This document shows, in pieces, positions 29,769-32,778 of a stretch of DNA of 35,857 nucleotides. Location: positions 1-35,857 of the forward strand of contig JAQTTQ010000010.1 in assembly GCA_028710685.1 (NCBI GenBank), given 5' to 3'. The DNA comes from Candidatus Omnitrophota bacterium (lineage in GTDB: Bacteria; Omnitrophota; Gorgyraeia; Gygaellales; Profunditerraquicolaceae). The notes under the pieces are model-generated. The model saw nothing but the letters and a program-made list of their open reading frames with translations, was not told where the DNA came from and did no database searches. The position numbers and the translations under genes were made by a program. Every line of letters begins with the position of its first letter. Position 1 is the first letter of the stretch.

Positions 29769-30809
29769 ATGTTAAGATACTTAACTGCAGGCGAGTCGCA
29801 CGGCAGGGCCATCGTAGCTATATTAGAAGGCATGCCGGCAGGCCTGAGAATAGATTTAAAAGCGGTAAATAGCGAGCTTAGGCGCAGGCAGCAGGGTTTT
29901 GGCCGCGGAAAGCGTATGCAGATAGAAAATGATACTGCTGAATTGCTTTCCGGGGTTAAGAATAATCTTACATTAGGCAGTCCGCTAACCTTGCTGGTAA
30001 GGAATAAGGATTTTAGCATTGAGAAGTTACATAAGGTATTATGTCCAAGGCCCGGGCATGCGGATCTTGCGGGTCTTTTGAAGTACGGTTTTAATGATAT
30101 TCGTGAGGTTTTAGAACGCGCCTCAGCCAGGGGTACGGTTGCTTCCGTAGGCATAGGTGCTTTATGCAAGATTTTTTTAAGAGAGTTCAATATCGCTATA
30201 TCCAGCAGGGTGTTATCTGTTGCCGGAGATGATTCTTCCGTGGGCATGAAGGCGGTGATCAGCGAGGCTATAAAGTCTAAGGATACTGTGGGGGGGATAT
30301 TTGAGGTTAGGGCCTGCGGGGTTCCCGTAGGATTAGGCAGCTATGTCCAGCCTGATAAAAGGCTTGATGGGCGCCTGGCCCAGGCAATAATTTCTATTCC
30401 AGGCATTAAGGCCTTAGAATTCGGGTTGGGTTTTGGTTATGCGGTAAGTTTTGGGTCAAAGGTGCACGATCCGATATATAAGAATAAGAATAAGGGTTTC
30501 TTGCGCAAAAGTAATAATTCTGGGGGTATTGAAGGCGGGATATCAAACGGTGAAGATATAATCTTGCGCGCATGCATGAAACCGATTTGTACATTAATGA
30601 ATCCGCTTGATTCGGTAAACATAAAAACCAAAAAGGCATCTAAGGCAGCTGTCGAACGTACGGATACCTGCGTGGTAAGCGCTGCCGGGGTTGTGGCAGA
30701 ATCTGCCTGCGCCTATGTCCTGGTAGACCTTTTCCTGGATAAATTTGGGTCAGATTCCCTTGCGGATATAAAAAATAATTATAAAAATTACCTGAAAAGA
30801 ATTAGTTAG
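29769..30809 (+). CDS. aroC: Chorismate synthase
   Basis: A 346-residue FMN-dependent enzyme that turns 5-enolpyruvylshikimate 3-phosphate into chorismate. Landmarks are LTAGESHGRAIVAILEGMPAG at the start, GRGKRMQIENDTAELLSGV, RPGHADLAGLLKYGFNDIRE and the family signature ERASARGTVASVGIGAL. The usual SARETAAR is SARGTVAS here, which still fits the PROSITE-style pattern. GGIEGGISNGEDI and ERTDTCVVSAAGVVAE complete it. AAGGAGGG precedes the ATG at good distance. It pairs with aroK downstream as a split shikimate-pathway pair with spoVG between them. Confidence 0.95.
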   Translation: MLRYLTAGESHGRAIVAILEGMPAGLRIDLKAVNSELRRRQQGFGRGKRMQIENDTAELLSGVKNNLTLGSPLTLLVRNKDFSIEKLHKVLCPRPGHADLAGLLKYGFNDIREVLERASARGTVASVGIGALCKIFLREFNIAISSRVLSVAGDDSSVGMKAVISEAIKSKDTVGGIFEVRACGVPVGLGSYVQPDKRLDGRLAQAIISIPGIKALEFGLGFGYAVSFGSKVHDPIYKNKNKGFLRKSNNSGGIEGGISNGEDIILRACMKPICTLMNPLDSVNIKTKKASKAAVERTDTCVVSAAGVVAESACAYVLVDLFLDKFGSDSLADIKNNYKNYLKRIS

Positions 30810-30818
30810 ATTTTGCTT

Positions 30819-30847
30819 CCTCCTTCGTCTATTAGTACGGAAGGAGG
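30819..30847 (+). promoter_or_regulatory. Hairpin that sequesters the spoVG Shine-Dalgarno
   Basis: CCTCCTTC (30819-30826) is an exact complement of GAAGGAGG (30840-30847), with GT/AC adding two more pairs across one bulged G. The 3' arm is the spoVG ribosome site. AAGGAGGTGAT (30841-30851) would match the canonical 16S rRNA 3' end over 11 nt, while the 5' arm mimics that anti-Shine-Dalgarno. The stem should block initiation until opened. No T-run follows, so it is not a terminator. Confidence 0.65.
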
Positions 30848-30855
30848 TGATAGCG

Positions 30856-31113
30856 ATGTCTGAGGGGTTAAGTTTAAAGGTAGTTAGGCTTTACAGGTTG
30901 GGGGGAGATTCAAAGACTAAGGCCTTCTTGGATATAGCCTTAGGAGATTTTATCGTTAAGGGGCTGAAGATTATCCAAGGGCAAAAGGGGTTATTTCTGA
31001 GTATGCCTCAGGATAAGGCTAAAGACGGTAAGTGGTACAATGCCTTTTATCCTGTCACTAAAGAGGCACGGCAGGCCTTGACGGATATAGTCTTGGCTGC
31101 CTATCAAGAGTAA
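30856..31113 (+). CDS. spoVG: SpoVG family regulatory protein
   Basis: An 85-residue protein of the SpoVG family, recognised from the KVVRLYRLGGDSKTKAFLDI opening, the central FIVKGLKIIQGQKGLFLSMP and the closing YPVTKEARQALTDIVLAAY. Relatives bind DNA and RNA and act as global regulators in Firmicutes and spirochetes. There is no sporulation context here. The ATG at 30856 is chosen because AAGGAGG (30841-30847) lies 8 nt upstream; the in-frame GTG at 30847 overlaps that site. The ribosome site is held in a hairpin, so translation may be controlled. It sits between aroC and aroK. Confidence 0.9.
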   Translation: MSEGLSLKVVRLYRLGGDSKTKAFLDIALGDFIVKGLKIIQGQKGLFLSMPQDKAKDGKWYNAFYPVTKEARQALTDIVLAAYQE

Positions 31114-31124
31114 AATACAACAGT

Positions 31125-31160
31125 AGGTATAGGTAAGGGCGCCTGCCTTTGCCTATACCT
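31125..31160. other. 15-bp intergenic hairpin after spoVG
   Basis: Arms at 31125-31139 and 31146-31160 pair over 15 positions (two G-T wobbles) around a 6-base loop CGCCTG. It occupies most of the 73-nt gap between spoVG and aroK. TAATTAGG follows, not a T-run, so it is only a possible terminator; it could instead stabilise the spoVG transcript end. Confidence 0.6.
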
Positions 31161-31186: not shown

Positions 31187-31693
31187 ATGAATAATATTTA
31201 TCTGGTTGGTTTTATGGGGACCGGTAAGAGTGCGGTAGGATGTGAATTGGCCAAGAAAAAGAAATGGCGTTTTGTTGATTTAGATGAGTTGATTGAGTTG
31301 AGAGAAGGCAGATGCATAGCCGACATTTTCTCTAAGAAGGGAGAACCTTACTTCAGGCGCCTCGAGAAAAAAATATTGGCAGAGGTAGCCAAAGAAAATA
31401 AATTTATAGTCTCTTGCGGGGGCGGGGTTGTTACTAACGAAGATAATATAAGGGTGATGAAAGAGACCGGTTTTATTGTCTGCCTTAAGGCTACGCCTGC
31501 CGTTATCCTCAGGAGGACAAAGCAAATGGCTGGATGCCGGCCATTGCTTAATGTCAATAATCCAAAAGAAAGAATAGGGCTTTTGCTTAAATTACGGGCC
31601 CCTTATTATGCCAAAGCGCATAAATCAATAAATACATCCAGGCTTTCCGTTGCTGAAGTGGCGGATGAGGTTATAAAATTAATTAAAAGATGA
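31187..31693 (+). CDS. aroK: Shikimate kinase
   Basis: A 168-residue P-loop kinase that phosphorylates shikimate with ATP. The Walker A is GFMGTGKSAVG (8-18), followed by the shikimate-binding DLDELIE region and a CGGGVV motif near 77-82. The LID Arg is in the MAGCRPLL segment (about 113-120). Length is normal for the AroK/AroL family. An AAAAGGG ribosome site lies upstream. It overlaps dprA in an ATGA junction. Confidence 0.94.
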   Translation: MNNIYLVGFMGTGKSAVGCELAKKKKWRFVDLDELIELREGRCIADIFSKKGEPYFRRLEKKILAEVAKENKFIVSCGGGVVTNEDNIRVMKETGFIVCLKATPAVILRRTKQMAGCRPLLNVNNPKERIGLLLKLRAPYYAKAHKSINTSRLSVAEVADEVIKLIKR

Positions 31694-32778
31694 ACAAACT
31701 CGAAGCTTTGGTTGCCCTGAATAAGGTCGGCGGGATAGGCAGCGTTAAGCTTAATAAGCTGATTGAGTATTTTCAAAGCCCCGAGGGTGTTTTACGCGCC
31801 CCTTACGAAAGGCTCTCGTCGGTTCTTGGCATAAAAGATAGATCTGCCGAAAGAATTGTTTCTTTGGGTAAAGAAGGCGTAAAAGAAGAATTGCTCTCTG
31901 CCGAGAAGATGGGGCTTAAGATTCTGACGATTGAGGATAAGGATTTTCCCCGTAATCTTAAAAGTATACCTTCCTGCCCGCTTGTACTTTATGTAAAAGG
32001 TGAATTAAGGCCTGAGGATAATTTTTCTATTGGTATTGTAGGCTCACGCAGGGCTTCTTTTTACGGATTAACCCAGGCCCAGGAATTTGCCTTTGGTTTA
32101 GCTAACCAGGGATTTACCGTTATATCGGGTATGGCCCGCGGGATAGATACTTATAGCCACAGGGGGGCGTTAAAGGCGGGTAAACGCACCATTGCCGTAA
32201 TCGGAAGCGGTTTTAATTATTTATACCCTGAAGAGAATAGAAACTTAGCCCAGGAGATCTCTGAAAACGGGGCAGTAATCTCCGAGTTTCCCTTGGATGC
32301 CAAGCCCATGCCTCAGAATTTTCCCAGGCGTAACCGCCTTATAAGCGGAATGAGCCTGGGGGTTTTGGTGGTTGAGGCAGCTAAAAACAGCGGAGCCCTT
32401 ATAACTGCGGATTTCGCACTTGAACAGGGCAGGGAGGTATTTGCCATCCCGGGTAAAATTGATTCGGCAAATTCTTTTGGCACCAATGAGTTAATAAAAC
32501 AGGGGGCTAAGCTGGTTACTAACCTCAATGATGTATTAGAAGAATTTAACCTGCCTTCTTTATCTTTAGATAAGAAGCCATCCGAAGATAAATTTATCCC
32601 TAAGGCAGAAGAAGAGGATAAGGTATATGGTTTAATATCTAATCAGGCTGTTCAATTGGACGACCTTGTTGAGCTTACGGGTATGGATATTCCAAGTATC
32701 TCCGGTGTACTTTTTAAGCTTATGGTAAGAAAATTAGTTAGGGAGCTTCCGGGCAAACATTATATGAGGTATTCTTAA
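31690..32778 (+). CDS. dprA: DNA processing protein DprA (Smf)
   Basis: A 362-residue protein that loads RecA on incoming single-stranded DNA during transformation and is also found in non-competent bacteria. It has an N-terminal helix-hairpin-helix/SAM-like part (1-75, LNKVGGIGSVKLNKLIEYF). The Rossmann-like core shows GIVGSRRASFYG, SGMARGIDTYSHRGAL, IAVIGSGFNYLYPEEN and FPRRNRLISGMS. A C-terminal winged-helix domain (about 300-362) completes it. It overlaps aroK by 4 nt and topA by 1 nt. The order dprA-topA-xerC echoes the Bacillus arrangement. Confidence 0.95.
   Translation: MNKLEALVALNKVGGIGSVKLNKLIEYFQSPEGVLRAPYERLSSVLGIKDRSAERIVSLGKEGVKEELLSAEKMGLKILTIEDKDFPRNLKSIPSCPLVLYVKGELRPEDNFSIGIVGSRRASFYGLTQAQEFAFGLANQGFTVISGMARGIDTYSHRGALKAGKRTIAVIGSGFNYLYPEENRNLAQEISENGAVISEFPLDAKPMPQNFPRRNRLISGMSLGVLVVEAAKNSGALITADFALEQGREVFAIPGKIDSANSFGTNELIKQGAKLVTNLNDVLEEFNLPSLSLDKKPSEDKFIPKAEEEDKVYGLISNQAVQLDDLVELTGMDIPSISGVLFKLMVRKLVRELPGKHYMRYS

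Follow-up and report, generated by a model that had tools for sequence, protein, structure and literature searches.

Genes and hairpin at the spoVG locus

The window analysed here, a whole stretch of 35,857 nt, is contig C35 of an Omnitrophota genome of 1.24 Mb in 84 contigs. On its plus strand lie aroC, encoding chorismate synthase (29769–30809; PF01264, 343 bits), the co-directional spoVG downstream of it, encoding a protein of 85 amino acids (30856–31113, with the ATG at 30856–30858; PF04026, 74 bits at a cut-off of 29.6), aroK, encoding shikimate kinase (31187–31693; PF01202), and dprA, encoding a DNA-uptake recombination mediator (31690–32778; PF02481), followed by a further long ORF. The aroC gene is presumed to be the source of read-through RNA that reaches spoVG, and dprA is possibly co-transcribed with spoVG and aroK. 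Between positions 30700 and 31400, zero sigma-70 sites were found on both strands, and a terminator scan called none on the plus strand. An inverted repeat, GGTATAGG...CCTATACC, is located at 31126–31159 in the gap between spoVG and aroK, where the plus-strand scan called no terminator; inverted repeats were seen by eye in this gap in several relatives too.

The spoVG gene is preceded by the 11-nt Shine-Dalgarno (SD) sequence AAGGAGGTGAT at 30841–30851 on the plus strand, its single exact occurrence in the window. The 5' arm CCTCCTTC (30819–30826), an anti-SD sequence that begins 10 nt past the aroC stop, pairs with the 3' arm GAAGGAGG (30840–30847), which holds the SD core, to form a stem of 8 bp with no mismatch and a loop of 13 nt. 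Folding of 121 nt predicted exactly this stem, with a minimum free energy of −31.5 kcal/mol and a z-score of −2.0 (5 of 200 shuffles were equally good). The energy needed to open the spoVG SD, 10.2 kcal/mol, was the highest among the 25 SD-bearing genes of the window, the runner-up requiring 6.9 kcal/mol. The original prediction had described an 11-nt SD at spoVG, an exact 8-bp stem with a preceding anti-SD sequence and a tight lock on this gene, and all three parts of that description hold. The 16S tail is absent from the genome's own assembly; a search of 31 genomes recovered the tail GGCTGGATCACCTCC from 10, two of them congeneric, with the own genome not among them. In an Rfam search of the window a tRNA was the sole match, with no riboswitch or other RNA family at the hairpin. 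A pseudoknot (UAGA:UCUA) that seemed by eye to join the 5' flank to the loop was dropped, as both pieces are promoter elements that are retained in copies without a stem.

The hairpin overlaps a promoter motif

Comparisons among relatives showed that the loop and the 5' flank of the spoVG hairpin vary less than its arms. Upstream of the short spoVG paralogue the order was GTTAGA or GTGAGA, 15 bases, CGTCTATT, a few bases and the SD. The same loop and flank letters recur before unrelated genes, and the loop is the same where the stem is absent, as at comM and zinc-finger genes. The fixed 15-base distance, together with the constant flank and loop, indicates a promoter and not a hairpin loop. 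In the window, the putative −35 element GTTAGA occupies 30805–30810 on the plus strand, with the aroC stop TAG (30807–30809) inside it; the 15-nt spacer, at 30811–30825, carries the anti-SD arm; and the −10 element CGTCTATT, at 30826–30833, is also the start of the hairpin loop. From the usual distance between a −10 element and the first transcribed base, transcription is predicted to start at 30836–30839. Since the 5' arm sits in the spacer between −35 and −10, it would be missing from mRNA initiated at this promoter.

The bipartite motif GTTAGA-N(14–16)-CGTCTA has seven exact copies in the own genome, every one with a 15-nt spacer; no copy of GTTAGA-N15-CGTCTATT with one mismatch was found there. 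Spacers of 15 nt were also seen in 141 of the 150 family matches listed, in a search that permitted 10 to 20 nt. Among 193 genomes sampled across the phylum, all 32 of the family carry the strict motif, with 219 copies between them; beyond the family it was found in three sister-family genomes of the order (G038, G042 and G043) and in six others. The backward motif, used as a control, gave one copy in the 32 family genomes and 14 in all 193. Where a gene was recognised behind the promoter (143 cases), its start codon lies at a median of 22 nt past the −10 hexamer. A typical ECF promoter has a −35 element with AAC and a −10 element with CGT (PMC3426412). CGTCTA in every strict copy agrees with the latter, and GTTAGA takes the place of the former; as the −35 lacks AAC, we call this promoter ECF-type by resemblance and position only.

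Some spoVG copies depart from this arrangement. About 195 nt separate the promoter from the gene in L020, and in L026, L032 and L041 an altered promoter that still has a stem was seen by eye. Of 59 related genomes, 54 gave a SpoVG match when both paralogues were counted; the second, longer paralogue in L001 (G000:C43:92469-92831) has neither promoter nor hairpin directly upstream.

The promoter precedes DNA-uptake genes

In the own genome, copies of the motif precede recA, comEA-comEC, comM, spoVG(-aroK-dprA), ORF6N, BNR-repeat and zinc-finger genes, the zinc-finger gene being followed by a CHAT gene. The promoter is thus common to comEA(-comEC), recA, comM and spoVG-aroK-dprA, a gene set of natural transformation, and dprA of the relative G006 has a promoter copy of its own (L370). 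Its promoter suggests that spoVG belongs to an ECF-type DNA-uptake regulon, and we infer from the gene content that this regulon serves natural transformation.

Several members have peculiarities. In the own genome, the ORF6N gene that follows the promoter (L050) seems frameshifted near its start. In several recA copies (L046 and others), an SD-like stretch of the AAGGAGGTGA type follows the promoter with no start codon nearby; the recA start lies 91–190 nt further on and in several copies is preceded by a sigma-70-like TTGACA stretch. Y1/IS200-like transposase genes (L109, L127, L135 and similar loci; labelled RAYT, Pfam call Y1_Tnp) also carry the regulon promoter, and have the SD-covering stem when co-directional with the upstream gene; a link between their transposition and the state of DNA uptake is possible. 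In G213:C35 and G008:C16, which belong to different families, two promoter copies agree in every letter and in their spacing of 988 nt, pointing to a shared mobile element or to mis-binning.

A candidate sigma factor is located at the promoter

One motif copy in the own genome (L052) overlaps an ORF of 199 aa at its end; this ORF matches the ECF sigma-70 family TIGR02937 with 54.2 bits (cut-off 42.9). Sigma2 and sigma4 domains were found for this ORF through its aligned relatives, of which 11 of 13 match PF04542, 2 of 13 PF04545 and 2 of 13 PF08281; the own ORF gave zero Pfam matches at 0.001, those to r4 and r2 being sub-threshold. Scanning named genomes with the sigma alignment returned 67 loci, 66 of them titled Omnitrophota or Omnitrophica and one 'bacterium isolate WY5.bin157', nearly all from metagenome assemblies. 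The promoter was located between −15 and +120 nt from the sigma end in 62 of the 66 usable loci (57 perfect), compared with 132 of 6700 random windows from the same loci. Because of this position at the end of the sigma gene, the motif is most likely bound by the L052-type sigma factor.

The zinc-finger gene behind the sigma gene, a candidate for a co-encoded anti-sigma factor, matches zf-HC2 (24.7 bits, cut-off 22.2) and, weakly, RsrA; its equivalent in G060 (L107) has no Pfam match at 0.001. The sigma factor was not found in 6 of 36 family genomes, where a profile search found nothing in five and weak ECF-like matches in the sixth. It was undetected in G033 (94% complete, 10 promoters), though two congeners have it, and in G038 of the sister family (94% complete, seven promoters). 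The region L052:546-2667 contains, in sequence, the ECF-like sigma gene, the promoter, the zinc-finger gene and a CHAT-domain gene, and in G010, G013 and G060 the zinc-finger promoter is followed on its own strand, at a distance of about 3 kb, by a BNR-repeat gene with the same promoter. Several genomes of family f6, and f9, encode weak relatives of the sigma factor about 0.6–0.8 kb ahead of spoVG and in its orientation.

Arm and Shine-Dalgarno sequence co-vary

The two arms of the spoVG hairpin change in step among relatives, CCCCTTTC occurring with GAAAGGGG and CCCCCTTT with AAAGGGGG (L014 and L025). We quantified this by exchanging spacers only among copies of one gene, which leaves base composition and SD strength unchanged; gene classes in this and the following energy comparisons were assigned by short sequence motifs and checked against Pfam in 10 + 9 examples. 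From 41 spoVG loci, seven with a promoter scoring below 8/12 within 150 nt and three further loci scoring 8–9 were left out. The mean duplex energy of the remaining 31 promoters was −18.0 kcal/mol with their own spacers and −15.4 kcal/mol with swapped ones, and none of 1000 exchanges was as good as the observed pairing. Compensatory changes in the gap between aroC and spoVG, which had been named as a check on the original prediction, are therefore present.

Locks of the spoVG design were also found on comEA, BNR-repeat, Y1-transposase and ORF6N genes. Exchanges were as good as the observed pairing in 1 of 1000 cases for BNR genes (12 promoters), and for genes co-directional with their upstream neighbour in 1 of 1000 for comEA (16), 0 of 1000 for Y1 transposases (8) and 14 of 1000 for ORF6N (8). 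For divergent promoters the figures were 677 of 1000 for comEA (6), 533 of 1000 for Y1 transposases (9) and 98 of 1000 for comM (8), in which pairing was not clearly lost. Zinc-finger genes (19) gave 756 of 1000.

Lock strength tends to vary with the orientation of the upstream gene

A first comparison of duplexes by gene class showed strong locks on spoVG and BNR genes, weaker ones on comEA and none on comM and zinc-finger genes, the last of which do have SDs but form weaker stems than swapped spacers would give. These differences led to the idea that the direction of the neighbouring gene matters. The same 125 promoters compared by duplex energy (69 co-directional vs 35 divergent) gave p = 7.7e-5, a result not independent of the idea.

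We then considered the cost of opening the SD. For spoVG in the window, freeing six bases takes 10.2 kcal/mol in the read-through RNA and 1.6 kcal/mol in promoter-born RNA, taken to start at 30837. Among 219 distinct promoters, 143 were kept and 76 without an SD and a start codon within range were dropped; 126 had a usable gene and direction, and a stricter direction rule altered two of the 143. The mean extra cost in read-through RNA was 5.1 kcal/mol for 92 co-directional promoters and 2.7 kcal/mol for 34 divergent ones (p = 0.0016), in a pooled comparison that, like those that follow from it, includes the discovery set and genomes that are related and hence non-independent. The difference was 6.1 vs 2.7 kcal/mol without zinc-finger genes (p = 7e-6) and 5.0 vs 2.7 kcal/mol when zinc-finger, spoVG and BNR genes were all removed (p = 0.0007). 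Within single gene classes, it was 5.6 (8 co-directional) vs 2.1 kcal/mol (9 divergent) for Y1 transposases (p = 0.004) and 5.3 (16) vs 1.65 kcal/mol (6) for comEA (p = 0.024). Exceptions were frequent: 42 of the 92 co-directional promoters stayed below 4 kcal/mol and 9 of the 34 divergent ones reached it. The zinc-finger gene, co-directional behind the sigma gene, had a mean extra cost of 1.3 kcal/mol (19 copies), and such a near-absent lock would be expected if this gene must be made whenever the sigma factor is.

Two hold-out sets gave differences in duplex energy in the expected direction, and neither was significant. The comEA set of 50 loci, four of which were dropped for want of a recognisable promoter, had 35 new co-directional and 5 new divergent copies (p = 0.17); one 'divergent' outlier, L329, has a minus-strand frame that runs across the promoter into the gene and was probably misassigned. 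The second set of 59 loci, with two promoter copies shared with the first set dropped, had 40 co-directional and 14 divergent promoters (p = 0.14); spacer exchange in this set was as good as observed in 0 of 500 trials for the co-directional and 185 of 500 for the divergent group. As the hold-outs were non-significant by duplex energy, we regard the direction rule as graded: that lock strength follows the direction of the neighbour is a tendency, not a law.

A promoter that probably also shields against read-through translation

Taken together, we consider it likely that 30805–30858 is an ECF-type promoter combined with a shield against read-through translation, and that its sigma factor switches on a DNA-uptake regulon. 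The L052-type sigma would recognise GTTAGA and CGTCTATT and turn on comEA-comEC, comM, recA, spoVG-aroK-dprA and others. RNA begun near 30837 would lack the anti-SD arm, leaving the spoVG SD free and SpoVG translated. With the sigma factor off, RNA entering from aroC would carry both arms and fold, so that SpoVG would stay untranslated, and this RNA could still serve for the translation of aroK and other genes further down.

The original prediction had instead proposed a translational switch in the leader of the main spoVG mRNA, opened by SpoVG itself, by temperature or by a small RNA. The hairpin is indeed stable and conserved, and SpoVG of Listeria is an RNA-binding protein (PMC4959528). But the conserved parts, loop and flank, are promoter elements common to unrelated genes, and the loop letters are unchanged at comM and zinc-finger genes, where the stem is absent. 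The 5' arm sits between −35 and −10, upstream of the inferred start site, and similarly built locks at other genes tend to track the orientation of the neighbour, being weaker or absent on average when it is divergent. The switch thus finds no support in these data, and we judge it quite improbable. Translational coupling, in which a ribosome that terminates at the stop codon of aroC opens the stem and spoVG expression follows aroC translation, would suit the closeness of that stop to the 5' arm and its overlap with GTTAGA in many relatives. The stem is nevertheless retained in relatives whose stop lies anywhere from within GTTAGA to tens of nucleotides upstream, and in some that have another gene upstream of spoVG; coupling would also leave the promoter and the locks on other genes unexplained, and it appears very improbable.

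The pairing might also be a by-product of a real promoter, with pyrimidine-rich spacers happening to face purine-rich SDs. Many spacers are rich in pyrimidines and a strong stem is missing at some co-directional promoters; against this explanation, spacers pair better with their own SD than with SDs of the same gene elsewhere, in co-directional classes only, and zinc-finger genes have SDs yet show weaker stems than swapped spacers give. We judge it improbable as well. The arms on both sides of the −10 element would fit a DNA operator, an inverted repeat bound by a repressor or activator. A protein site would not be expected to vary by gene and genome with both arms changing in step, many divergent copies have no repeat, and among the family promoter copies compared no conserved arm common to all genes of one genome was seen. 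An operator is accordingly the least credible of these explanations, and we give it hardly any weight.

The read-through shield accommodates these observations, and a broader form of it seems reasonably probable to us, at somewhat lower confidence: that the whole regulon gained anti-SD spacers promoter by promoter, where co-directional neighbours could leak, under an undescribed competence sigma factor of Omnitrophota whose partner gene was left unshielded for co-production with the sigma. If so, promoter and translational insulation would share the same 15 bases, suggesting a way to silence inducible genes in compact genomes that have much read-through and no terminators, by placing an anti-SD sequence in an otherwise free spacer. 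The rule makes predictions from sequence alone, as the direction of the neighbour shifts the odds of a stem. The analysis also provides Omnitrophota, known almost entirely through metagenome assemblies, with a candidate sigma factor, a promoter and a DNA-uptake gene set, and it places SpoVG, a regulator, among DNA-uptake genes. The design could be used for leak-free expression cassettes.

Comparison with known systems

In IS10 and IS50, read-through RNA folds and hides the transposase start, whereas here Y1 transposase genes would obtain the shield via a promoter common to chromosomal genes. ECF sigma factors are generally autoregulated and co-transcribed with an anti-sigma factor (PMC3426412). 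The present system shares with them the CGT of the −10 element, a promoter at the sigma operon and a zinc-finger partner gene; unlike typical cases, its −35 lacks AAC and the promoter is found between the sigma and the partner gene. Known competence sigma factors are SigX/ComX in streptococci and SigH in staphylococci and lactobacilli (PMC7665891, PMC3486894, PMC3364868). As in those, one alternative sigma would turn on DNA-uptake genes here, but it is ECF-type, has a zinc-finger partner, uses a different promoter and belongs to Omnitrophota. No ECF or competence regulon for Omnitrophota was found in the literature searched, a coverage with most subscription journals outside it.

The closest parallels are in phage T4, where ribosome-binding sites are hidden by RNA structure on transcripts from upstream promoters for I-TevI, I-TevII, I-TevIII, segB, soc, e, 39, 25 and 26, as also for mobE of Aeh1; for I-TevI a late promoter lies just upstream, and its RNA has too little 5' sequence to form the structure (PMC2988022). 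For Bacillus subtilis sigG, the proposal is that a hairpin keeps read-through RNA of the upstream spoIIG operon from being translated; transcripts that begin at the promoter of sigG itself are unable to fold it (PMC5942855). The same logic would apply here, with the ribosome-binding site pairing with sequence upstream of the gene's own predicted start and thereby expected to be hidden only on RNA initiated upstream. The T4 cases concern phage genes and late promoters, and sigG is one gene with a hairpin of 20+ bp, whereas here short stems occur on many chromosomal genes of one ECF-type promoter class, with the anti-SD sequence in a fixed spacer between −35 and −10 and a tendency to follow the direction of the neighbour. 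Given these precedents, the logic of read-through hairpins was already known, one gene at a time; what is new, as far as the literature was searched, is the regulon, its candidate sigma factor and a proposed shield spread over many promoters of one class.
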